Source of the DNA: Sutcliffiella sp. FSL R7-0096
GTDB lineage: Bacteria; Bacillota; Bacilli; Bacillales; Bacillaceae_I
DNA: 64,000 bases
Reading direction: 5' to 3'
Assembly (NCBI RefSeq): GCF_038595065.1
Contig: NZ_CP152003.1
Coordinates: 2,212,001-2,276,000, forward strand
Each line of letters starts with the position of its first letter. Position 1 is the stretch's first letter. This document shows positions 5,483 to 60,579 of this stretch, one piece after another. The notes under the pieces are model-generated. The model did no database searches. It was not told where the DNA came from and saw only the letters and a program-made list of their open reading frames with translations. A program made the position numbers and the translations under genes.

Positions 5483-5504
5483 TACCGTTTTTCCATTTAA
5501 ATCA

Positions 5505-5685
5505 GGCTCTATTTCCAAGAGTTTGTTGCTATATACTAGTAAAAAGTCGGCAATTGGACTTTTTGCAGCGTACATACTCTAAAAATGCATTAGAAAAATT
5601 ATTAATGCAAGGAAAAGAGCACGACAAAAGGAATAGAACGGTTGGTTTAAAAGTACGTAAAAGCACAAAGTTTACGAAAATGGCC
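5505..5685 (+). mobile_element. MITE-like element, copy A
   Basis: This is a 181-bp non-coding element that recurs five times in the window. Its ends are an imperfect inverted repeat of the family terminus GGCTCTTTTCGTAAAG (here ggctctatttccaaga and tttacgaaaatggcc). It holds the family core ggaaaagagcacgac near 5611-5625 and an internal hairpin with a perfect 8-bp stem (AAAAAGTC 5541-5548, GACTTTTT 5557-5564). The flanking octamers TTAAATCA and TAAAATAA agree at 6 of 8 positions, consistent with an old, decayed target duplication. The remaining bases up to spoVK (5686-5943) show no gene and no convincing promoter. Confidence 0.8.
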
Positions 5686-6931: not shown

Positions 6932-8437
6932 TTATCCAATATTTTTTCCTATTTGTTCCAAATCCTCCTTGATGGCATCTGCGGTCAGTTGCCCAGACAG
7001 GGTCACCATCGGAACACCACCGCCGGGGTGAGTGGATCCACCAGTGAAATATAGATTGCTCAAAACTTTGCTGCGGCACGGAATCTTGAAGCCGCCATTC
7101 TTTTTCCGGTCTGTAACCACTCCATAAATGGATCCACCGTTAGCTCCATATAAATTTTGTAAATCATTTGGAGTAAAGGAGTATTCGAATTCTATGGAAT
7201 CCTTTAACCCGCCAAGTCCCATTCTTTCCAACTTGGTAAGGACTTTTTCGCGGTAAATATCTTTATATTCCTCCCATGTTTCCCCTTCCTTCAGAGGAGG
7301 AACATGTGTTAGAACGAACAAATTCTCTTTGCCCTCAGGTGCTTGGGTAGAGTCCGATTTAGAGGAAACCCCTAAATAGATCGTTGGATCCTTTGCAGGC
7401 AGTCCTTTGTTGAATATGGTCTCAAACTCCACTGCAGGATCTTTGGAAAAGAAAAAGTTATGATGTGCCAACTGTTCATATTGTCTTTTCACTCCTAGTA
7501 AGAGGACCAGGCCAGAGACCGTGGGAGAATATTTTACCAGATCGTTTGCTGCCCGCTCAGCCATAGGAACACCTTTCAAGAGAGTTTTATACGCCGGAAT
7601 CGCTTCAAGGTTGGAGACGACGAAATCGGCAAGGATTTCCTCCCCATCTTCCAACAGCACCCCTGTAGCTTTGCGACCGTCAGTAAGAATTTTCCCGACC
7701 GATGCATTCAGTTTATAATCTACCTTCAGTTCGTCAAGGAGCTTCTGCATCGCTTCGGCAATTTTATACATTCCGCCCTTCACATAGTAAATACCAAGCC
7801 CTAGCTGTACATGCGTGAGTTGGGAAAGTACGGCAGGTGCGTGGTAGGGGGATGAGCCGATGTACATGATCATAAAATTGAAAAGCTGCTGTAAATGCTT
7901 GTCCTCAAAGTATTTCTTTGTGATCTGATCCATGGATTTCATTGGATCCATGCCGATAAGTTCCTTAAGATTATGCAATGCACGCAGTTCTGCTAAACCG
8001 GATAGGCTCTTTTTATAAAAACTCTTCAAGCTGTATTCATACATCCTGCTGCAATAGTTCAGGTATTCAAAAAATCCGTTTGCATCTTTTGTAGAGTGCT
8101 CCCTGATCTGCTCAAGCATTTTAGGGAGGTCGCTTGTCACATCGATCGTCGTACCATCTTCAAAAAATGTTTTCCACTGAGGTTCGATTCTCTCGATCTT
8201 GATGTAATCATGAAGGTTGCGATTTGCGCTCGCAAATAATTGCTCCAACACCCATGGCATCGTCAAGATGGACGGACCGGTATCGAAGGAATAGCCTTTC
8301 CCGGAACGAATATTCATTTTGCCTCCTAGCCGCTCGCCCTTTTCAATCACTTTTACTTCATTTCCGTCTGCGGAAAGACGGATCGCGGCAGATAGGCCAC
8401 CAAGGCCGCCGCCTATTACTACTACTTTCTTTTTCAT
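6932..8437 (-). CDS. CrtP-like C30 carotenoid desaturase/oxygenase
   Basis: This 501-residue FAD-dependent CrtI-family enzyme starts with the dinucleotide-binding motif GGGLGGL (9-15) and ends with the family flavin signature GGSTHPGGGVPMV. By memory its sequence follows Staphylococcus CrtP (4,4'-diaponeurosporene oxidase, also called CrtNb) more closely than CrtN: GPSILTMPW, YIGSSPYHAPAVLS, AHHNFFFS and IYGVVTDRKKNGGFK all have direct CrtP counterparts. The likely reaction is oxidation of a terminal methyl of a C30 carotenoid to aldehyde or acid. The ATG follows aaggagg by 7 bp. It is divergent from the crtQ-like gene, which fits a shared pathway. A pure desaturase role cannot be excluded. 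Confidence 0.85.
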   Translation of the reverse strand: MKKKVVVIGGGLGGLSAAIRLSADGNEVKVIEKGERLGGKMNIRSGKGYSFDTGPSILTMPWVLEQLFASANRNLHDYIKIERIEPQWKTFFEDGTTIDVTSDLPKMLEQIREHSTKDANGFFEYLNYCSRMYEYSLKSFYKKSLSGLAELRALHNLKELIGMDPMKSMDQITKKYFEDKHLQQLFNFMIMYIGSSPYHAPAVLSQLTHVQLGLGIYYVKGGMYKIAEAMQKLLDELKVDYKLNASVGKILTDGRKATGVLLEDGEEILADFVVSNLEAIPAYKTLLKGVPMAERAANDLVKYSPTVSGLVLLLGVKRQYEQLAHHNFFFSKDPAVEFETIFNKGLPAKDPTIYLGVSSKSDSTQAPEGKENLFVLTHVPPLKEGETWEEYKDIYREKVLTKLERMGLGGLKDSIEFEYSFTPNDLQNLYGANGGSIYGVVTDRKKNGGFKIPCRSKVLSNLYFTGGSTHPGGGVPMVTLSGQLTADAIKEDLEQIGKNIG

Positions 8438-21665: not shown

Positions 21666-22557
<892 letters not shown>

Positions 22558-42354: not shown

Positions 42355-42468
42355 ATGTTGGTTAAGAACGGTCAACCACAAGTCATGCTTGTTATTCTAG
42401 CATGTTGCCAACACCTAAAAACATTGGCGAAGGGTACTCAAACTCCACTGATTAGGAGGGAATACAAA
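42355..42468 (+). ncRNA. Omega-RNA (HEARO)-like leader of the iscB fragment
   Basis: The 114 bases before the iscB start form several local hairpins: GGTT/AACC (about 42359-42376), CATGCT/AGCATG (about 42382-42402), GCCAA/TTGGC (about 42406-42428) and CTCC/GGAG next to the start. Known IscB proteins use an RNA encoded immediately upstream of the gene, first described as the HEARO motif. Position and structure fit that class, but the covariance model was not run. The leader is probably inactive because its nuclease gene is broken. Confidence 0.6.
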
Positions 42469-42600
42469 ATGTTTGTATTCGTCTTTAATAAACACGGCGA
42501 AGCGCTAATGCCGTGCAAACCAAAAAAAGCACGACTTCTTTTGAAAGAAGAGACAGCAAAAATCATACTTAAACACAAAAAAACCAATTACTACCCCTAA
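42469..42600 (+). pseudogene. iscB: N-terminal fragment of IscB (RRXRR domain start)
   Basis: The first 32 codons, MFVFVFNKHGEALMPCKPKK followed by ARLLLKEETAKI, are the standard start of IscB-type RuvC/HNH nucleases (RRXRR/PLMP domain). After the ATC codon at 42562-42564 the similarity stops, and eleven unrelated codons lead to a stop. A good aggaggg site precedes the ATG. The missing continuation (VNYQPFRIQLLYG) is found at 50822, also behind an ATC codon, in the same orientation. Confidence 0.85.
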
Positions 42601-42717
42601 AATTGCCGCAATGATATAGCTGACATTTTAATAATTTTTCATTACATGTGACATAATAGGCGGTCCCGCTGCCACACCGATAAATCATGATGAACTGTAA
42701 GCTTCTTTATTTAATTA

Positions 42718-42851
42718 TTATTCATATATCATTTTTCTCGTCATTCCGCCATCCACTGTCAGGTTCTCTCCTGTAACAAAATCGTTCTCGCTGTCTGTAA
42801 GATACAAGCATGCCTTCGCTATGTCCGATGGCTTGCCCACTCTTTTGGAAA
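42718..42851 (-). pseudogene. C-terminal remnant of a short-chain dehydrogenase
   Basis: Some 44 codons read SKRVGKPSDIAKACLYLT then GENLTVDGGMTRKMIYE and stop. This is the classic SDR C-terminus (RxGxPxDIA... GxxxxVDGG). Upstream, similarity ends exactly at the edge of MITE copy D. The catalytic YxxxK and the Rossmann part are absent, also beyond the element. The gap 42601-42717 shows only a short minus-strand hydrophobic stretch. Confidence 0.75.
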
Positions 42852-43035
42852 TGCTATTTTCGCATATTTTGTTGCTTTTTCGGAATGTGTAATTTTCCGT
42901 ACTAAACGTTGCTGTCGTGCTCTTTTCCTGCATTTAAAAGGGGAACTGCATTCTATTTTCAGAGCAGAAAGGAGGTGAAAAGTCCAAATGCCGACTTTTT
43001 ACTAGCTTTTAGCTGCAATCTTTACGAAAAGAGCC
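42852..43035 (-). mobile_element. MITE-like element, copy D, without target duplication
   Basis: This 184-bp copy has ends tgctattttcgcata and tttacgaaaagagcc, the core gtcgtgctcttttcc near 42914-42928, and the internal stem AAAAGTC/GACTTTT (42978-42984 and 42993-42999). Its flanks TTTGGAAA and TTAAAGTT do not match, and the left flank is a truncated SDR gene whose other half is not on the right. This suggests recombination or deletion at the element. The 180 bp from here to pucB hold nothing recognisable. Confidence 0.8.
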
Positions 43036-43215
43036 TTAAAGTTTAACAGAAGCTGCAGCTCGAAAGGTTTGCAGAGAAAAACGGGGCTTACAGTTCATAA
43101 TCTTGTCTAGATAGTTTGAAGACACTTAAATGTTTTGCTGTTAGCTAATTGTTTTTTTTAGGCGAGCCTGCCGACATTTTTGATTCAGCACCATTTATTT
43201 TCTAATATACACATG

Positions 43216-43809
43216 CTATTGAAAATACCTATATTGGGTGGGCGTGTCGATATCTTGAAAACTTTTTCCTTCATTAAATTCAACCGTCAACCCTTTACTA
43301 TTATTTTTTAGGATACTGCGTGCACCTTCGTCTCCATTTAATTGATATAGTGCAGGAAAAAGTGTGGAATTAAATAGAACAGGGGGACATAGTACTCCAT
43401 TAGAAGATGAAGCAACGTAATTGGGCTTTTCTTTTTTGTATAGAGAAATAATATGGTCTATTATCTCTCTCGTAACAAACGGCTGATCTGCAAGTATTAT
43501 CATGACTGCCTCGGCCTGCATTTTCTGTGCAGTTTTTAATCCACATTTTAATGATTCAGCCTGACCCTGTGCTGATTCTTTACACCTTGTATGTATCCAA
43601 TTTTTTTTAAAATGTTCAAGAAAAAAGTAGGAGGGCAGCCATGAGAGAGAGTCATGTTCATTTGTAACAACAACAATACTATCTAAACTTGATGAAATAG
43701 CAGTTTCTAAAGCAATACTTCCAAGTGGTCTATCACCCAAAGGAAGAGAAAGTTTTGGACACCCCATTCTTTTGCTCTGACCTGCTGCTAGGTATATTCC
43801 GAAAATCAT
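43216..43809 (-). CDS. MocA-type molybdopterin cytidylyltransferase (PucB-like)
   Basis: The 197-residue nucleotidyltransferase has the N-terminal signature LAAGQSKRMGCPKL (8-21) and a LADQPFV metal site. MocA/PucB proteins attach CMP to molybdopterin for xanthine-dehydrogenase-type enzymes, and B. subtilis PucB is the closest analogue I know. It overlaps the end of the XdhC-like gene by 77 bp in another frame; the start is fixed because the signature begins seven residues after it and agagg precedes it. It ends a four-gene minus-strand operon. Confidence 0.85.
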   Translation of the reverse strand: MIFGIYLAAGQSKRMGCPKLSLPLGDRPLGSIALETAISSSLDSIVVVTNEHDSLSWLPSYFFLEHFKKNWIHTRCKESAQGQAESLKCGLKTAQKMQAEAVMIILADQPFVTREIIDHIISLYKKEKPNYVASSSNGVLCPPVLFNSTLFPALYQLNGDEGARSILKNNSKGLTVEFNEGKSFQDIDTPTQYRYFQ

Positions 43810-44821
43810 TGTGATTCCTCTTTCTAAGAGTTTTGATTAAGTCCGCAAGAATGCTAATAGCTATTTCCTCAGGTCCTTCAGCACCAATTGGGAGGCCTAC
43901 AGGGGAGTGGAGGAAATCAGGGATATCCTGCCCCTCTAAAAGGCGCAATGTTCGTTTTCTTGGACCCAGCACACCTAAATATTGTATTTTTTTCGTTATA
44001 GCTGTTTGAAGAATCTCTTGATCTTTTTGAAAATTGTGCGTCATAATAATAACGAAATCGTCTGGAGAAAAAGAAAAATCTCTTAAAAATGTACTTGGAA
44101 ATTCTAAACTTATTTCATCAGCATCTGGGAAATAAGTTCTGCTGCAGAATGCTGGGCGCCAATCGTTAATAATGGTATGAAATCCATTTTTCGCTGCTAA
44201 GTTAACAAGCGGCCTTACATCTTGTGTTGCCCCAAATATAATAAGACGCGGTTTCGGGTTAAATACTTGGAAAAAATATCTGTCTTTCATATTCTCTATA
44301 TAACCAGTTTCTTTTTTATGTTCAGAAAATAAGTTCTTTAGCTGAGGGAGGATTTCTCCATTCCATTCCCCAAAGCAGTCCTCTTTTTGTGTAAGGAAAA
44401 TATAGTCTAAAACCGTCCCATAGTTTGATAACCTTTTTACATGAAGTATAGGCATTCTTTGGTTTAAGTAGTTTTGAACCCTATTAAGATGTTTTTCGAG
44501 CTGAGCATCTACTTTCTCCAAGAGGACGGAGATAGTTCCATTACATCCGCTGCCCGTTCCCCAGATCAAGTCGTTCTTTGATTTCATATCGTATACAATG
44601 GTGCGGGAGGAATTTGTATTTAGTACGTCAGCGGCATTTGCTGCTAAATCATTTTCAAAACAACCTCCGCTTAAAAGCCCTGTCTGGGTGCCATCCTCCA
44701 TCATCATCATCATAGCTCCTTCCTTTCGATAAGAGGAGCCCTCGACATTTATTATAGTAGATAACACTTTTCTTTGTGCGGAATCCTGAAGTGAATTCAA
44801 TATATGGAAAAAGTCATTCAT
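43733..44821 (-). CDS. XdhC/PucA-type molybdenum hydroxylase maturation factor
   Basis: The XdhC family protects and sulfurates the molybdenum cofactor and hands it to xanthine dehydrogenase. The 362-residue protein has the N-terminal XdhC/CoxI part (RKEGAMMMM, GLLSGGCFEND, GTGSGCNG) and a C-terminal Rossmann domain (RLIIFGATQDVRPLVNLA, GVLGPRKRT, PVGLPIGAEGPEEIA). ATG 44821 is preferred over 44830 because gggag then sits 9 bp upstream. The last 28 or so residues (after KTLRKRN) are unusual and lie within the overlap with the MocA-like gene. Confidence 0.88.
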   Translation of the reverse strand: MNDFFHILNSLQDSAQRKVLSTIINVEGSSYRKEGAMMMMMEDGTQTGLLSGGCFENDLAANAADVLNTNSSRTIVYDMKSKNDLIWGTGSGCNGTISVLLEKVDAQLEKHLNRVQNYLNQRMPILHVKRLSNYGTVLDYIFLTQKEDCFGEWNGEILPQLKNLFSEHKKETGYIENMKDRYFFQVFNPKPRLIIFGATQDVRPLVNLAAKNGFHTIINDWRPAFCSRTYFPDADEISLEFPSTFLRDFSFSPDDFVIIMTHNFQKDQEILQTAITKKIQYLGVLGPRKRTLRLLEGQDIPDFLHSPVGLPIGAEGPEEIAISILADLIKTLRKRNHNDFRNIPSSRSEQKNGVSKTFSSFG

Positions 44822-44857
44822 TTTTTTCATCTCCCATGGACACTAGTCAGTTTGAAA

Positions 44858-45061
44858 TTAATTTTTTTTAATAACTACGTGATCTCCATTTGGGAGCTGA
44901 AGAATATTTGCTAAAAATGCCTCAGCAATAGAAGTGGAAATCGATTCCAATTCTTTTTCATCTTTTGCTAACAAAGAGAGAGGCGAACCGCCTAAGTACC
45001 GGTTTTTATCAATAGATATATATGCCAGTATTCCTTCTGATTGTCCTTCATCTTTTCCCAT
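44858..45061 (-). CDS. Small partner protein of YIEGIA (capping-complex-subunit type)
   Basis: The 67-residue protein (GILAYISIDKNRYLGGSP near the start, FLANILQLPNGDHVVIKK at the end) is of the kind found directly after YIEGIA genes in spore formers, where databases call it a capping complex subunit for YIEGIA. Its biochemical role is unknown. It starts 4 bp after the YIEGIA stop with an aggagg site, so the two are coupled. The xdhC-like gene follows 36 bp later. Confidence 0.75.
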   Translation of the reverse strand: MGKDEGQSEGILAYISIDKNRYLGGSPLSLLAKDEKELESISTSIAEAFLANILQLPNGDHVVIKKN

Positions 45062-45065
45062 TAAT

Positions 45066-45983
45066 TTATCCTCCTGTTTTTTTATTCAATAAGCTGGGAT
45101 TTTTTTTCACCGTCTCTAATAAAGGAGTAAGTAAAATGGTTTCTTTAAGAAGATCAAAGTTATTGATAATAGGGACTATTGCTATAATGATTTTTCCATC
45201 TGTCGGGTTTTGAACACTATAGATCTTCTTCTGGCCGAGTCTTCGTGCAGATTCAAATAATATAGCCTGACGTTGTCCGCCATTTAAAAGAGGAATTTGA
45301 AAGTGATCATGATTGGGATGAATAATGGCAGCAAGACCTTCCTCGGCAAACCACTTTTTCGCTTCCCCTTTTCCCATTAAATTGGAGACAAACATACCAT
45401 CTACGTATAATTCAGAACCCTTTATTTCAATTTTCCCCTCCGTTACTTTGGCTATATCTCTCACTTTTTTCCGTGCGGTTAAATACTTTAATAAATAGAA
45501 TAAGATAAGCCCAATTAAAGAACCACTTACGACTTCGATCCAGGCAGAAACATCGAAAAGCTCTTGTAATAGTTGAATCGTGAGAGCAGCAGCAAAGGAA
45601 ACGAGTAATGAGATATAGTTGCGCGCTTCAAATATTTTGGATATTCCGTCTATGTATGCATCACCTCGTTTTGCAAATTCCTCTCCTTCAAGATCCAAAA
45701 GACTTTCTCTTTCTACCTTTCGAACATCACGAAATTGTTGTATTGCTAAGCCAAGAAACGTAACTGCAGTAAAATTCTTTGTCATTAATGCTGGAATGAT
45801 AAACGCACCAAATGCAGCAGCAAGTCCTCCTGTAACAATATGTATTAAATAGCCGTTTGGATAATTAGGGTACTGTCTGTAATCTAAAATTATGTACAAA
45901 ATTCGTGCTAAAGTTCCTATTGCAGTCGCTGTTATAATAAGGACTAACATTTCAGGGGTTATGACGTCGTTGTTATTTGGCAT
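45066..45983 (-). CDS. YIEGIA-family membrane protein
   Basis: The 305-residue protein has about four membrane helices in its first 175 residues and a soluble C-terminal half. The namesake motif appears as DAYIDGISKIFEARNY near residues 108-123. The family is conserved in spore-forming Firmicutes; its function is not established. It heads a minus-strand operon that continues through its small partner into the xdhC- and mocA-like genes, and it is divergent from the molybdenum hydroxylase large subunit, an unusual setting. Confidence 0.82.
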   Translation of the reverse strand: MPNNNDVITPEMLVLIITATAIGTLARILYIILDYRQYPNYPNGYLIHIVTGGLAAAFGAFIIPALMTKNFTAVTFLGLAIQQFRDVRKVERESLLDLEGEEFAKRGDAYIDGISKIFEARNYISLLVSFAAALTIQLLQELFDVSAWIEVVSGSLIGLILFYLLKYLTARKKVRDIAKVTEGKIEIKGSELYVDGMFVSNLMGKGEAKKWFAEEGLAAIIHPNHDHFQIPLLNGGQRQAILFESARRLGQKKIYSVQNPTDGKIIIAIVPIINNFDLLKETILLTPLLETVKKNPSLLNKKTGG

Positions 45984-46190
45984 TATCGAAGAACTCCTTA
46001 CAAAGCAATTTGATAATAGGGTTTGTCGGATGAGAATTTTTATACGAAATTTAATTTTTTTCCATGTAAGGTATATTTTCCTTATTTTAACGAATGAAGC
46101 AAGTCACTAAAAACAATACTAAATTAATAATTAATCTTTTCTTAGGAACACTAAGATTTAGCAATATGTTAATAAAGGTGGCATTAATTG

Positions 46191-48512
46191 ATGAGTTCGA
46201 GTATTGGAAAAAGCATTTATCGTAAAGAAGCACTGGAAAAGGTTACCGGAGCAGCAAAATATACAGATGATTATTCAACTACAGGGATGTTACATATTAA
46301 GCTAGTAGTTAGTTCGTATGCCCATGCTAAAATTAAATATATCGATACAACTAAGGCGCAAAAAGCACCCGGCGTTCGAGCGATACTTATTGGACAGCCG
46401 TTTCCACTGGCTGGAGAAGAAATTAGAGATCGGCCTCCTATTGCTTTTGAAAAAGTTCGGTATCATGGGGAACCAGTAGCTGCTGTCATAGCTGATAGTC
46501 CCGTTCAAGCCAAAAAAGCAGCGGAATTAATTGAAGTTTCGTATGAACCTCTGCCAGCTGTGAATTCTCCTAAGGAAGCGCTCCTTCCGGGTGCCACGTT
46601 AATCCATGAAAATCTGACAGGTTACCAAAGAATCCAACATGTCTATCCAGAGCCGAATACTAACATTGCAGACCGTACAAAAATACGAAAAGGGAATATA
46701 TCACAAGGATGGAAAGAGAGCAGTGTAAGTGTAGAGGCGAGCTTTTCCTTTTCTCCTTCTGACCATATTGCTATGGAAACAAGATGTGTCATAGCGGAGA
46801 TTCGACCAGATGGATGTGTGTTGATTTCTACTTCATCTCAAGCCCCCTTTAGGGTAAAAAAACTGATTAGCGAGTATTTTAATTTAGATATAGGTAAAGT
46901 TATTGTGACTACTCCTCTGGTTGGGGGAGGGTATGGCGGAAAAGTTGCAGTCCAACTGGAACTTATTGCATATATGGCAACACTAGCGGTAGGCGGCAGA
47001 CCAGTCAAACTTGTCAATACACGGGAAGAAGACATGATTACATCACCGATACATATTGGCCTTGATGCGAGTATTAAGCTTGGTTCGACTGAGGATGGGA
47101 AAATAACCGCTGCAGAAATATTGTATATGTTTGATTGTGGGGCATATTCCGATAAAGGAACTACGATTAGCCGGGCTGCAGCTGTAACTTGTACTGGACC
47201 CTATCATATTGAAAATATTTGGTGTGATTCCCTTTGTGTTTATACAAATCATCCTTACGCAACAGCTTACAGAGGTTTTAGTCATTCTGAGCTATTATTT
47301 GTTTTTGAGCGAGCTATGGATATGCTTGCTCAAAAACTTGGAATAGACCCTTTAGAGTTAAGAATGAAAAATGCAATTATGCCCGGTCATACAACGGCAA
47401 CACAAATATATCTTAATCAAAGTACGATTGGAAATTTACCTAATTGCATCGAACGCTTAAAACAACTGATGAACTGGAAAGAAGGACAAATTACCCAAGT
47501 AAGCAAGCGGAAAATCAGAGTAAAAGGAGTCAGCTGTATATGGAAGACATCGACCATTGATACTGGAGCAAGCTCAGGTGTATTGTTGACATTTAATGAA
47601 GATGGAAGTGTGAATATAATTTCAGGTGTTGTTGAAATAGGGACGGGCACAAAAACGGTATTAGCTCAGTTATTATCGGAAAAACTTAAACTGGACATTA
47701 ATAAAATTCATGTAAAGATGGAAGTTGATACACAAACAACACCAGAGCATTGGAAAACGGTTGCTAGCCGCAGTACCTTAATGGCAGGAAGAGCGTTATT
47801 GAATGCTGCAGATGACGTAATTAAGCAATTAAAAGATGTCTCCTCAAGAGTGCTTATGTGTTCTCCTGAAGATTTAGAAGTAGGAAACGAAATGGTCTAT
47901 GTCCGTGATGAGCCGGATATATTTATTCATGTCAAAGATGTTTGCTATGGATATAAATATCCAAGCGGGTATTCTATTGGAGGGCAGATAATTGGAAAAG
48001 GTCAATATACGTTAAGACATTTAACTCATATCAATCCTGAAACTGGTGCTGGAAAACCTGGACCAGAATATTCAGTAGGTGCACAAGGAGTAGAGGTAGA
48101 GTTTGATACAAGAGATTATACATATAAAGTGTTGAAAGCATACTCTGTCATCGATGTAGGGAAAGTACTAAATACTAAAGCAGCACATAGTCAAGTGATG
48201 GGTGCTATGAGCATGGGTTTAAATTTTGGCAGCAGTGAAACGTTCGTATTTAGTAAAGAGGGTAAAGTTCTTAATCCCCGGCTACGTACATATTTACCGT
48301 TTCGATATGGTGATCATCCGGAATATATCGTTCATTTTCTAGAAACACCTCATATCGATGGTCCTTTTGGAGCAAGAGGTTTAGGGGAACAAGGATTAAT
48401 TGGCATGCCCGCAGCACTTGCTAACAGTCTATCGACTGCAGCTGGAGTAAATCTAAATAAACTGCCGCTTACTCCCGAATTAATCTGGAAGGAAAAGAAG
48501 ATGGTGGATTAA
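46191..48512 (+). CDS. Molybdenum hydroxylase large (molybdopterin-binding) subunit
   Basis: The 773-residue subunit belongs to the xanthine dehydrogenase/aldehyde oxidase family, which hydroxylates carbons using water. It has the N-terminal a/b hammerhead (RKEALEKVTGAAKYTDDY), the loop GGGYGGK, YRGFSHSE, and the catalytic Glu E733 in GARGLGEQGL. With FAD and 2Fe-2S subunits behind it and XdhC/MocA genes divergent, xanthine dehydrogenase is the likeliest identity, though nicotinate- or aldehyde-type substrates are possible. ATG 46191 is used rather than TTG 46188. Confidence 0.9.
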   Translation: MSSSIGKSIYRKEALEKVTGAAKYTDDYSTTGMLHIKLVVSSYAHAKIKYIDTTKAQKAPGVRAILIGQPFPLAGEEIRDRPPIAFEKVRYHGEPVAAVIADSPVQAKKAAELIEVSYEPLPAVNSPKEALLPGATLIHENLTGYQRIQHVYPEPNTNIADRTKIRKGNISQGWKESSVSVEASFSFSPSDHIAMETRCVIAEIRPDGCVLISTSSQAPFRVKKLISEYFNLDIGKVIVTTPLVGGGYGGKVAVQLELIAYMATLAVGGRPVKLVNTREEDMITSPIHIGLDASIKLGSTEDGKITAAEILYMFDCGAYSDKGTTISRAAAVTCTGPYHIENIWCDSLCVYTNHPYATAYRGFSHSELLFVFERAMDMLAQKLGIDPLELRMKNAIMPGHTTATQIYLNQSTIGNLPNCIERLKQLMNWKEGQITQVSKRKIRVKGVSCIWKTSTIDTGASSGVLLTFNEDGSVNIISGVVEIGTGTKTVLAQLLSEKLKLDINKIHVKMEVDTQTTPEHWKTVASRSTLMAGRALLNAADDVIKQLKDVSSRVLMCSPEDLEVGNEMVYVRDEPDIFIHVKDVCYGYKYPSGYSIGGQIIGKGQYTLRHLTHINPETGAGKPGPEYSVGAQGVEVEFDTRDYTYKVLKAYSVIDVGKVLNTKAAHSQVMGAMSMGLNFGSSETFVFSKEGKVLNPRLRTYLPFRYGDHPEYIVHFLETPHIDGPFGARGLGEQGLIGMPAALANSLSTAAGVNLNKLPLTPELIWKEKKMVD

Positions 48513-49361
48513 ATGATCTCGTATGATTTTGAATATTACAAACCAACATCTATTGAAGAAGCGACTCAATTATTTCAATCATTGGATGAGCAAGGAAAAG
48601 AACCCATTTATTTTTCAGGTGGTACAGAAGTGATCACACTTGGAAGAGATAATAAAATTACTACTGGTGCTGTCATTGACATTAAGGCGATTCCAGAGTG
48701 CCTTGTAATAAAAAAGGAAAAAAATAAGCTTATTTTAGGAGCTGCACAAACATTAACGAAAATTCGCGAATTGCAATTATTTCCTTTATTAAGCAAGGCA
48801 ATTATTGAAATTGCAGATCATACTGCCCGAAATAAAATTACATTGGGCGGAAATATATGTGGAAACATTATTTACAGAGAAACGGTGTTACCGCTTTTAC
48901 TAACCAATAGTAAAGTAGTGATAGCGAGTCATACAGGCTTAAAACGGCTGCCGATAAATGGAATATTTAATCAGACACTTAAATTAGAAAAAGGAGAATT
49001 ACTAATTCAAGTAATTACAGAGCAAAGTGAAATTGATTTGCCCTTTCGTATAGTAAAAAAACGAAGACAATGGGATGTTGGATATCCGCTGTTAACAATT
49101 GCTGCTCTAAAAAAGAAGGAACAAATAAAATTGGCATTTAGCGGATTATGTTCATTCCCTTTTCGAGAAAAGAAAATAGAAGAAAGTATAAACAATCTTC
49201 ATTTATCCAAGGAAGCAAGAATAGAAGATGCAATAAAACATGTACCAATACCTATATTAGATGATGTCCACGGATCTGCTGAATACCGATTGTTTGTTTT
49301 AAAAAATTCTTTAAGTGACTTATTGGATGCATTGGAAGGAGAAAAAAATGACCAAAGCTGA
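48513..49361 (+). CDS. Molybdenum hydroxylase FAD-binding subunit
   Basis: The 282-residue CoxM/XdhB-type subunit passes electrons from the 2Fe-2S centres to the acceptor. FAD motifs are FSGGTEVITLGRD (about 34-46) and KITLGGNICGNI (about 108-119). It starts at the base after the large-subunit stop and overlaps the 2Fe-2S gene by 14 bp, so subunits are made in a coupled way in the order large, FAD, 2Fe-2S. This differs from B. subtilis pucC-pucD-pucE, where the FAD gene comes first. Confidence 0.9.
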   Translation: MISYDFEYYKPTSIEEATQLFQSLDEQGKEPIYFSGGTEVITLGRDNKITTGAVIDIKAIPECLVIKKEKNKLILGAAQTLTKIRELQLFPLLSKAIIEIADHTARNKITLGGNICGNIIYRETVLPLLLTNSKVVIASHTGLKRLPINGIFNQTLKLEKGELLIQVITEQSEIDLPFRIVKKRRQWDVGYPLLTIAALKKKEQIKLAFSGLCSFPFREKKIEESINNLHLSKEARIEDAIKHVPIPILDDVHGSAEYRLFVLKNSLSDLLDALEGEKNDQS

Positions 49362-49806
49362 AATATCGCTGACTATAAATGGCGAGGAGCGTACGGTGTA
49401 TGTGCGATATGCGGATACATTATTGTCTGTTCTTCGGGAGAAGCTTGATTTAACAGGAGCAAAACCAGGTTGTTTAAACGGTGATTGTGGTGCTTGTACG
49501 ATTGATGTAGAAGGAGAATCGATGAAGTCATGTTTAATGCTTGCTGTAGAAGCAGTTAATAAAAAAGTAACAACCGTGGAAGGACTTCAAAACACTCCGA
49601 TTCAATTACAGTTTGTTGAAAAATTCGCTTTTCAGTGTGGATATTGCACACCAGGATTCATTATGAATTGTCACACATTAATTCAAAAGCATCCGAACGC
49701 AGATAATCTGGTTATTAAGGATTATTTAGAATCGAATATTTGCCGTTGTACAGGATATAAAGAAATTGAAGAAGCAATTAAGTCCGTATTATCTAATTCC
49801 CCCTAA
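49348..49806 (+). CDS. Molybdenum hydroxylase 2Fe-2S subunit
   Basis: The 152-residue CoxS/XdhC-type small subunit has a plant-type ferredoxin domain with CLNGDCGAC (from C42) plus the fourth Cys near residue 62, and a helical domain with CGYCTPGF and CRCTGY for the second cluster. Together these carry electrons from the molybdenum site to FAD. ATG 49348 was chosen because aaggag precedes it; the frame extends to 49315 inside the FAD gene. No clear terminator follows. Confidence 0.93.
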   Translation: MTKAEISLTINGEERTVYVRYADTLLSVLREKLDLTGAKPGCLNGDCGACTIDVEGESMKSCLMLAVEAVNKKVTTVEGLQNTPIQLQFVEKFAFQCGYCTPGFIMNCHTLIQKHPNADNLVIKDYLESNICRCTGYKEIEEAIKSVLSNSP

Positions 49807-49923
49807 ATGCTGAATGGTGCATCGATGTTCTAGTTAGTAAAAATTAATAAATTGTATATATGTAAGCGATCGTTGACATACTAAAAAGTATTTTCAAAAA
49901 CGTTTTTTTAGGAGGAATTACCT

Positions 49924-50199
49924 ATGCAGCAAAACCAACAAGCACAGCAAGCAGCTCAACAAGCACAGCAAGCCATCAAACAGGCACAACAGTCTATTCA
50001 ACAAGCGACACAACAAGCTAATCCTCAAGCTATTCAACAAGCTCAACAGCAGCTGCAGCAAGCTACTCAACAATTGCAACAAGCTCAAAGTAGTGCTCAA
50101 CCAGCACAACAGCATCAATTCCAGCAGGTTCAACAGCAACTAACGCAGGCTACCCAACTACTGCAACAAGCCCAACAACTACAGAATCAACAACAATAG
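49924..50199 (+). CDS. Glutamine/alanine-rich low-complexity protein
   Basis: The 91-residue protein is about half Gln, with Ala and little else: short repeats of QQAQQA, QQATQQ and QQLQQA, no Cys, no Trp, and only two Lys. It could form a long amphipathic or coiled-coil helix. The ATG has a textbook aggagg site and a terminator follows, so it is likely to be expressed. Small Gln-rich proteins of this kind in Bacillus are often spore components, but this one lacks the SASP signatures I know, and the role is open. Confidence 0.7.
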   Translation: MQQNQQAQQAAQQAQQAIKQAQQSIQQATQQANPQAIQQAQQQLQQATQQLQQAQSSAQPAQQHQFQQVQQQLTQATQLLQQAQQLQNQQQ

Positions 50200-50213
50200 A
50201 TTTCATCTAAATC

Positions 50214-50261
50214 AAAGGGGTGATATCATAGCATATTAAACGGTGGTGTCACCCTTTTTTA
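50214..50261 (+). terminator. Terminator after the Gln-rich gene
   Basis: AAAGGG-TGA pairs with TCA-CCCTTT with internal bulges around a long loop, followed by six T. Confidence 0.75.
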
Positions 50262-50419
50262 ATTTTTGAAGCAAAAAAGAGAGTTGGATCCTGTAAAAAA
50301 GAATGTATAGCCAACAATAGAGTTTATGATTAATATTCGATTTTTCTTCCTTCTATCGTGAAGATCTGCCTGGATATCTTTTAAGAACGATTAACTTATA
50401 AATAATTCGACGGAAAAGC

Positions 50420-50463
50420 AAAACCTCCTGCCGGTGTCTGACCCCGGCAGGAGGTTTTTTTCT
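50420..50463. terminator. Strong perfect hairpin terminator
   Basis: AAAACCTCCTGCCGG pairs perfectly with CCGGCAGGAGGTTTT, followed by T. It stands 160 bp after the previous terminator and before the broken M50 gene, so the gene it served may be lost. The rest of 50262-50540 shows no gene. Confidence 0.85.
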
Positions 50464-50540
50464 TATTTCACCTGGAAACTAAAAAAAGGATAATTTCCTG
50501 TATAATGAAATTAACTTTAAAAAAAGAAGGTTGTTTTAAG

Positions 50541-50821
50541 ATGCTGGATATACTTTTGTTTATTTTCTTGATTGTCCCCCTTGTGCACTTTATTCATGAA
50601 AGCGGGCATGTTTTTATGGCTAGAATCTATGGTGTGAAAGGAACCATGTGATTGGGGCTGGTCCTAAACTAGGGGATCTAACTATTTTGGGTGCGGGTAT
50701 CCGCTTAAATATGGTTCCATTTTTAGGTGCTCATTCCACCAGTAGTGATGCCGGTCAGCTTACCTATGACAAAATCGCCTGGATATCATCAGGAGGACCC
50801 ATCTTTAACATTTTATCCATC
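50541..50821 (+). pseudogene. Frameshifted, truncated M50 site-2-protease-like gene
   Basis: From ATG 50541 the frame reads MLDILLFIFLIVPLVHFIHE then SGHVFMARIYGVKGTM and a stop at 50649. The zinc motif is HESGH with a membrane helix around it. A second frame continues at once with IGAGPKLGDLTILG and GGPIFNILS, typical M50 features. So a one- or two-base indel near 50645 breaks the gene. It is then cut at about 50821, where an IscB fragment begins. The C-terminal half is missing. Confidence 0.75.
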
Positions 50822-51535
50822 GTAAACTATCAACCATTTAGAATTCAGCTTCTATACGGAAGCTATGAATACAAACAAGAAGTAAAAATCGGAGTCGATT
50901 TAGGGGCAAAACACATTGGAATCGCCATTCAAAGCCAAAATCAGGTGTTAGCCAAAGGTGAAATCGAATTACGAGATGATATAAAAGCAAACTTAGAATC
51001 TCGTAAAACCTATCGAAAAAGTAGATGCAATCGAAAGACTCGATACCGAAAAGCTCGGTTTCTAAATCGTACTTCTTCTAAGAAAGAAGGATGGTTGCCT
51101 CCTTCTATTCGAAACAAAATCGATCATACTTTTCGCTGGATCGTTCGCTTTTCGAGTCTATTACCAAACCCCAAACTAATAATTGAAGTAGGTAAATTCA
51201 ATGTTCAAAAAATGATCAATCCTGCTATACAGGGTATAGAATATCAACAAGGTGATTTATTCAGCTATCATGACGTTCGCTATTTTGTATTTACGAGAGA
51301 TAACTACACCTGTCAAGTGTGTAAAAAGAAAGGGAAAATCCTGAACACACACCACATTGTTTATCGTAGTCACGGTGGAACAGATAGAGCTAATAACTTA
51401 ATTTCTGCTTGTACCGATTGTCATACACATGAAAATCATATTTTTACGGACCAACAGGCTATTGAAGTTTGGAAGCAACTTTCTAGTGAATACTTTGAGA
51501 AGTTCTTAACAAATGAGTTGTCATTTCAAGAATAA
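50819..51535 (+). pseudogene. iscB: Main fragment of IscB nuclease, both ends missing
   Basis: The frame picks up IscB at IVNYQPFRIQLLYG and shows RuvC-I Asp in IGVDLGAKH (Asp codon 50897-50899), the Arg-rich bridge helix (RKTYRKSRCNRKTRYRKARF), RuvC-II Glu in LIIEVGKF, and an HNH domain with two zinc Cys pairs (CQVC, CTDC) and LNTHHIVYRSHGG. RuvC-III and the C-terminal target-interaction part are absent; the last 25 or so residues are not IscB-like. The upstream M50 remnant is in frame, so a 295-codon chimeric frame (50648-51535) exists. Confidence 0.85.
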
Positions 51536-51547
51536 AAAAGAGCCCGA

Positions 51548-52024
51548 ATGATTGAGCTTTTTAAAAAGGTTGAAATTAAACTAACAAATGAAGAGGCAGA
51601 TGATAAGTTTGAGAGTTATTTGTCTTAATATAAGAAAAATTGGAAGGCTTATGCAGATGTAATAGAGGTTTTAGACAAATTAAAAGAGCAGGGTTATCCA
51701 TTAGGTATTATTAGTAACGGGGACTAACAACAACAAGTAAAAAAACTACAACGTATGGGAGTAGATAAATACTTCAACTTCATTATTACCTCAAGCGAAG
51801 TAGGTATATCAAAACCAGACAAATCGATTTTTATAGAAGCTTCTAAACGTGCAAACAGCCTTATTGAAAACTGCTACTATGTAGGAGATAGATTAGATAC
51901 TGATGCGTTAGGTAGCAAAATGTCTGGAATGATAGGTATATGGTTAAATCGAGTAGATAAACAACAACATCCAGAAATAATTGTGATTAGTTCTTTCCAA
52001 GAATTATTAAAGTTATTTAGATAA
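51548..52024 (+). pseudogene. HAD hydrolase pseudogene with two in-frame stops
   Basis: One frame reads a HAD-IA hydrolase lacking its N-terminal DxDGT: KAYADVIEVLDKLKEQGY, GIISNGD, then KPDKSIFIEASKRA, YYVGDRLDTDALGSK and a normal stop at 52022-52024. TAA codons interrupt it at 51626-51628 and 51725-51727 (the latter where a Tyr is usual after NGD). No frameshift is needed to read through, so decay is recent. It sits 12 bp after the IscB fragment. Confidence 0.8.
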
Positions 52025-60313: not shown

Positions 60314-60364
60314 GGTGATGAGAGTTTCGAGTTATTTCTTGCTCGAACTTTCATCATTTATATA

Positions 60365-60547
60365 GGCTCTTTTCGTAAAGATTGTTGTTTGTAACCAAGT
60401 GAAAAATTGGAAATTGGATTTTTTACATTTAAATGCTCCAATTGTAGAAAGAGAATATCATTTTACTTAAGGAAAAGAGCACGATGGCAACTATTATTAC
60501 GTCATATAGATAATTATGAAAAAGAAACAGAGTATGCGAAAACAGCT
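60365..60547 (+). mobile_element. MITE-like element, copy E, with perfect 8-bp target duplication
   Basis: This 183-bp copy in the orientation of copy A has ends ggctcttttcgtaaag and tatgcgaaaacagct and the core ggaaaagagcacga near 60471-60484. TTTATATA occurs at 60357-60364 and again at 60548-60555, an exact 8-bp direct repeat. The element ends 32 bp before the fdhD start codon, and with its flanks fills most of the moaB-fdhD gap. Confidence 0.88.
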
Positions 60548-60579
60548 TTTATATAAGTTAACAGAAAGGACCTCTAATT

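Follow-up and report, generated by a model that had tools for sequence, protein, structure and literature searches.

An iscB gene, most likely split by an 8.3-kb segment, at the left edge of a block that reaches to tRNA-Sec in Sutcliffiella sp. FSL R7-0096

Two pieces of what is most likely one iscB gene

When two pieces of iscB sequence lie 8.3 kb apart on the same strand of a bacterial chromosome, are they parts of one gene, and if so, how did they come to be separated? This question is raised by the chromosome of Sutcliffiella sp. FSL R7-0096 (contig NZ_CP152003.1), within a window of 64,000 nt, which is the whole stretch of DNA analysed here and whose numbering is used throughout. The stretches 42469–42564 and 50822–51440 are, on the strength of the sequence comparisons given below, most likely the 5′ and middle parts of a single iscB.

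The 32 residues read from the 5′ piece, MFVFVFNKHGEALMPCKPKKARLLLKEETAKI, end in ETAKI, with the codon ATC at 42562–42564 as the last; a second ATC stands at 50819–50821 and is followed by GTAAACTATCAACC (GTA AAC TAT...), which reads VNYQP. These residues and positions agree with those of the original prediction, made from the letters of the sequence alone. The Pfam family PF14239 (RRXRR) is matched by the 5′ piece over positions 1–31 (E = 1e-7) and by the middle piece over positions 31–174 (E = 4.8e-45), and the NCBIfam IscB equivalog NF040563 divides between them in the same manner, at 1–33 and 30–238 of its 314 positions (E = 4.5e-9 and 2.6e-79, respectively). The middle piece has no internal stop codons and contains RuvC-I, the Arg-rich region, RuvC-II and an HNH domain (PF01844, E = 9.3e-10).

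We compared 81 loci (L-numbers; genomes bear G-numbers, this one being G000), of which 15 outside this genome match the 5′ piece. In 15 of these 15 the match to the middle piece begins at the expected residue 33, with a gap of 0. The 15 are not all separate, as L002 and L053 are apparently one gene (their contigs are equally long and their translations identical) and L059 and L060 share a genome; L061 and L063 have broken iscB frames, and the remaining 13 have stop-to-stop frames of 428–488 codons. Across the joint, the DNA of the iscB in L052 (Paenibacillus) is GCAAAAATCGTAAGCTAT, reading ATC GTA at the corresponding place. The identities of the two pieces to the 15 loci correlate (Spearman 0.77, from rows that are not independent). 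By our estimate, two independently cut genes of ∼1.3 kb would meet within 3 bp in only ∼0.5 % of cases, which argues for a single gene. That the pieces belong together, as predicted, is borne out by their complementary spans of one Pfam and one NCBIfam model and by the absence of a gap in every matching locus. Nor do they fall into different IscB subfamilies, since one family model (NF040563) matches both and the identity ranks agree, and the genome, a single contig of 4.91 Mb, yielded neither piece a second time.

A tblastn search for complementary halves (E up to 5), covering the window plus 8 kb with M50, HAD, SDR, MFS, DUF2817 and IscB queries taken from relatives or paralogues, returned both halves for iscB alone; the test is partial for MFS and SDR, whose queries are themselves incomplete at the N-terminus. 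The positions of the pieces and of their neighbours are given in Table 1.

Table 1. Features at and around the split iscB gene, in window coordinates
Feature	Position	Strand	Basis or remark
Truncated DUF2817 (M14-like) gene, C-terminal 121 codons	41996..42357	-	N-terminal two thirds lost; 83 % amino acid identity to L109 residues 243–363
iscB omegaRNA (HEARO) leader, 3′ stub	42358..42468	+	Aligned with L051, L052, L120 and L061; first ∼163 nt gone
iscB 5′ piece, codons 1–32	42469..42564	+	N-terminal region with ALMP, compare PLMP domain; PF14239 1–31, NF040563 1–33
MFS transporter gene fragment, left end of insert	42565..42699	-	Two in-frame stops; 64 % amino acid identity over 45 codons to L127 MFS
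SDR gene, C-terminal end, bordering the MITE-like repeat	42721..42852	-	86 % amino acid identity over 44 codons to L128 SDR; PF13561
Copy of a dispersed repeat resembling a miniature inverted-repeat transposable element (MITE)	42852..43035	+	Terminal inverted repeats; numerous similar copies across the genus
Molybdenum-hydroxylase (XDH-like) cassette	43216..50199		Pfam; collinear in G183 and G208
M50 peptidase gene, 5′ part and upstream region, right end of insert	50361..50821	+	Frameshift near 50645; cut at 50821
ATC at the right junction, 3 bp common to M50 and iscB	50819..50821	+	Also at 42562–42564; L052 iscB has ATC GTA
iscB middle piece, codons 33 to ∼238	50822..51440	+	PF14239 31–174, PF01844, NF040563 to 238/314; DNA homology in G063 and G146 ends at 51439–51440
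HAD-hydrolase pseudogene	51442..52024	+	5′ end gone, three in-frame TAA stops; HAD families

Loss of the C-terminal end and of the omegaRNA

The features against which an IscB may be measured, as mentioned in PMC9755519, are a PLMP domain, an RRXRR region, HNH and RuvC domains and a 5′ HEARO/omegaRNA. The locus resembles the IscB/HEARO family (NF040563, RF02033) in that both pieces fall within it, in its Arg-rich region, RuvC-I, RuvC-II and HNH, and in an N-terminus with ALMP, as in several relatives. It is unlike the family in that it is split by 8,257 bp, retains the omegaRNA only as a 3′ stub, has lost RuvC-III together with the C-terminal part and carries a Cys in place of one Arg of the RRXRR-type motif. 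RRXRR and HNH are present, then, whilst RuvC-III with the C-terminal part, the upstream omegaRNA and a continuous frame of ∼430 codons are all absent, and because of these three absences the locus is, judged by its sequence, a remnant of an IscB family member and not a working one. The original prediction had the joined pieces restore a normal IscB N-terminus as far as HNH; a normal IscB would not result from joining, as nothing is left of RuvC-III or the C-terminal part and the HAD pseudogene comes next. Any remaining guide or nuclease function seems unlikely.

On the right, similarity to IscB ends at ∼51440, after HNH, and the part that is missing beyond this point includes the C-terminal target-recognition region. 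The DNA from 51442 to 52016 is 74 % identical to a HAD-hydrolase gene of the same genus (G011:C18). A search of this genome for the IscB C-terminal part found none; the query, which comes from G063, recovers that genome and G146, and misses G069, where the IscB-like proteins are only 32–34 % identical to the middle piece.

On the left, the omegaRNA is cut at 42357/42358, where it abuts the DUF2817 remnant, and the DNA homology of that remnant to G001, G014, G010 and G013 stops at 42355–42358; the reference frame for DUF2817, in L109, has 363 codons and contains PF10994. In relatives the HEARO RNA (RF02033) measures 230–242 nt. L051 and L052 carry it immediately upstream of iscB, and L120 has it ∼1.8 kb upstream of that gene; for L121 Rfam reported no HEARO. 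Homology between the stub and L120 opens at position 7219 of that locus, within a HEARO match that spans 7056–7297. In this stretch of the window the Rfam HEARO search gave no match, and just the 3′ stub is recognizable, by alignment. The DUF2817/omegaRNA and HAD/iscB junctions were likewise read from alignment. Transposition of a HEARO element into DUF2817, with 42358 as its natural left end, was ruled out because the full omegaRNAs of relatives start ∼163 nt further upstream.

In L120 (genome G063) the HEARO RNA and the start of iscB are separated by ∼1.8 kb of other sequence, from 7297 to ∼9116. This locus appears to be a second interrupted IscB element, with its break between the guide RNA and the gene.

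The junctions of the 8,257-bp segment

At the codon of the M50 gene where the right junction falls, ATC is found in seven of 12 M50 relatives (these being found among 19 loci examined), and ATC also stands at the matching place in the iscB of L052; the junction is therefore best read as a 3-bp microhomology. As ATC is common at this point in M50, its repetition at the two ends of the insert is not necessarily a target duplication. The ends of the insert revealed no long inverted repeats, the longest exact inverted match between its two 60-bp ends being 7 bp, and no transposase or recombinase was seen among those of its genes that were examined. Two candidate events were rejected: a transposon insertion with target-site duplication, because no inverted ends were found, and an inversion linking M50 with iscB, because what lies at the left of the insert is the MFS fragment, where the remainder of M50 would be expected.

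The 3-bp ATC at the right junction and the lack of inverted ends fit an origin by illegitimate recombination. In common with insertions made by illegitimate recombination in bacteria, the segment shows little or no junction homology and no detectable transposon ends; it is unlike them in being 8.3 kb long and in that the event is deduced from one genome and was not observed.

Content of the segment

The segment occupies 42565–50821, with broken genes at both ends. The SDR and M50 remnants and the molybdenum hydroxylase cluster that had been predicted within it were recovered by Pfam and by alignment. Genes of the cassette specify a MobA-like NTP transferase, XdhC, a YIEGIA protein, XDH-type large, FAD and FeS subunits, and a Gln-rich protein of 91 aa. 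Collinearity extends over 43270–50179 in G183 (65–75 % DNA identity) and over 44858–50198 in G208 (73–75 %); these two genomes provide the best matches to the cassette (∼75 % over the XDH part), and both stop by ∼50198, short of the M50 piece. The XDH large subunit was matched in none of 15 other genomes of the genus at E = 0.001. Within the M50 piece, 50361–50644 is 68 % identical in DNA to an M50 locus of G012, and an M50 paralogue elsewhere in this genome contains PF02163.

Several further observations were made on this segment. The Gln-rich gene (49924–50199) has no Pfam match and likewise adjoins the XDH cassette of G183 and that of G208; it also has DNA matches elsewhere, for example at G183:C1:1347606-1347895. 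A palindromic, terminator-like sequence at 50416–50468 (CCTCCTGCCGG...CCGGCAGGAGG) recurs in similar form across many genomes of this genus; a His_leader match at the same position, with 32.1 bits against a cut-off of 49, is probably due to chance. The MITE-like repeat, of ∼185 bp, has the ends GGCTCTTTTCGTA.../...GAAAAGAGCC and occurs four times in the window (42852–43035, 5504–5684, 21667–21864 and 60364–60550); with these we sampled 17 copies from elsewhere in the genome and three from G015 (L178–L197), and there are many more matches in the genus. Target duplications of 8 bp, read by eye, flank five other copies (L182, L185, L189, L192 and L193). The copy at 42852 has no match in Rfam, and the repeat may, we presume, derive from an ISL3-type element.

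The surrounding block and tRNA-Sec

The split iscB forms the left edge of a block of ∼26.7 kb, the right end of which lies at tRNA-Sec beside an integrase-domain remnant. Relative to G001, the block (42358–69021 in window numbering, positions beyond 64000 being taken from L126) comprises 26,664 bp that replace 959 bp. The order in G001 is the DUF2817 frame, ∼240 bp and then tRNA-Sec, placed there by similarity; in this genome tRNA-Sec is located at 69035–69131 (L126 6035–6131). Outside the block the sequence is collinear with that of relatives on both sides. Ahead of tRNA-Sec are an IS110 transposase and a 171-codon frame that matches the phage-integrase catalytic domain (PF00589, positions 61–169 of 172) and looks truncated. 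Molybdenum-cofactor genes and a formate-dehydrogenase-type molybdopterin oxidoreductase are also found in the block; most gene names in our lists for the block and the window are assumed by us from the translations.

In tRNA-associated genomic islands an integrase gene lies beside the 3′ end of a tRNA. The block resembles such islands in that it is not found at this place in relatives, ends at the 3′ side of tRNA-Sec and has an integrase domain and IS110. It is unlike them in that its left border is a truncated gene and that a search of the block and the window revealed no direct repeat of the tRNA end, the only matches besides that end itself being short (up to 14 bp at 93 %).

Discussion

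We consider it likely that the locus represents one IscB/omegaRNA element with three breaks, and that the 8,257-bp segment came to lie within iscB by illegitimate recombination around the acquisition of foreign DNA. Under such a scheme, foreign DNA would have been acquired next to tRNA-Sec, and the XDH-bearing segment would have entered iscB, either resident or carried along, during or after this acquisition, the ends being sealed by end joining or through the 3-bp microhomology at the M50/iscB junction. Further deletions would have removed the ends of the element together with those of neighbouring genes, such that the omegaRNA stub met DUF2817 and the HNH end met the HAD gene. Of the original proposal that a segment was inserted into, or recombined through, an ancestral iscB, insertion stands as the simplest account; the amendment is that the segment is itself a patchwork within the larger block and that the element was broken twice more.

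A number of points weigh against this explanation. A match of 3 bp is weak evidence for any single mechanism, and the 5′ piece is short. The nearest iscB relatives are just 65–70 % identical over the middle piece and do not point to a donor; of 397 genomes in the order, 10, including this one, match iscB at the DNA level, the best others being G063 (67 %), G146 (70 %, partial) and G346 (71 %, partial), and plasmid matches consisted of three Ligilactobacillus records (65–67 %). The search of relatives that had been suggested as a check did yield contiguous iscB genes in related loci, but no intact iscB at the same site without the 8.3 kb was found among them, and thus no empty site was seen. 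For this reason the order of the three breaks, whose positions are plain in the sequence, is something that we infer, as is the pathway of repair. In addition, the ATA that follows the left ATC is also codon 33 in the iscB of L003 and L054; the pieces may therefore overlap by one codon instead of meeting exactly, and hence may stem from two slightly different iscB copies.

A different sequence of events is possible, though we consider it less likely: the element and the XDH segment may have been part of the same incoming DNA and iscB split in that event, with no later insertion into a resident gene. This overlaps with the explanation that we prefer, which allows for a resident or an incoming iscB, and the odds of the two are not additional. 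Both iscB and the cassette look foreign, as the 15 other genomes of the genus give no match to the XDH large subunit and match the IscB middle piece with short HNH- or HAD-type hits alone (five of 15) or not at all (10 of 15), and everything lies within one block. Against this, blastn with the window gives no iscB in the 12–20 kb around the XDH cassettes of G183, G208, G182 and G220, a result that is not decisive.

It is improbable that two different iscB copies were truncated independently and are complementary by chance. Truncation of every gene directly adjoining the pieces shows that more than one break took place here, and the codon overlap described above would suit two copies. However, the ends are complementary to within a codon at all 15 loci, a coincidence that we put at the ∼0.5 % estimated above, and the shared IscB model, the correlated identities and the lack of any further iscB piece in the genome likewise speak against separate origins.

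That the junctions were created by misassembly is very unlikely, given a single-contig genome with 99.99 % completeness and 0.43 % contamination, stops and a frameshift in the adjoining pieces, and flanks outside the block that are collinear with relatives. It would be highly speculative to suppose that this omega nuclease, or a different one, made an RNA-guided cut within iscB and that the 8.3-kb metabolic cassette was captured at the resulting chromosome break; if true, a useful pathway would have landed in a dying mobile nuclease. A programmed split has its model in sporulation genes that become whole again once an element is excised; the 8.3 kb would be removed at the ATC repeats to rebuild iscB, and near-exact complementarity and a 3-bp direct repeat are what such a system would present, but we regard it as scarcely conceivable here, since no recombinase is seen among the insert genes, there are no inverted ends, the insert terminates in broken genes and the rejoined gene would still be without RuvC-III and a full omegaRNA.

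Our preferred explanation, a broken element into which a segment came by illegitimate recombination, describes a fairly ordinary outcome of genome decay, in which a mobile element has decayed where an acquired block has its patchwork edge, and the split iscB opens no long-standing question. The records returned by our literature search held nothing on IscB in connection with interruption, insertion or genomic islands, and those for truncated or pseudogene IscB were limited to base-editing work, which is no proof that none is in print.

The 295-codon frame at 50648–51535 runs in frame through M50, IscB and HAD parts, and its score with the IscB model exceeds the curated cut-off. An annotation pipeline would probably name it IscB, and caution is called for, as the frame is a chimera of three broken genes. 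Beyond this, the locus provides an interrupted IscB element, mapped almost to the base, in a chromosome whose relatives indicate it to be Bacillus-like, and it shows how a molybdenum-enzyme cassette has come to sit in a patchwork of broken genes, within a block with tRNA-Sec at its end.

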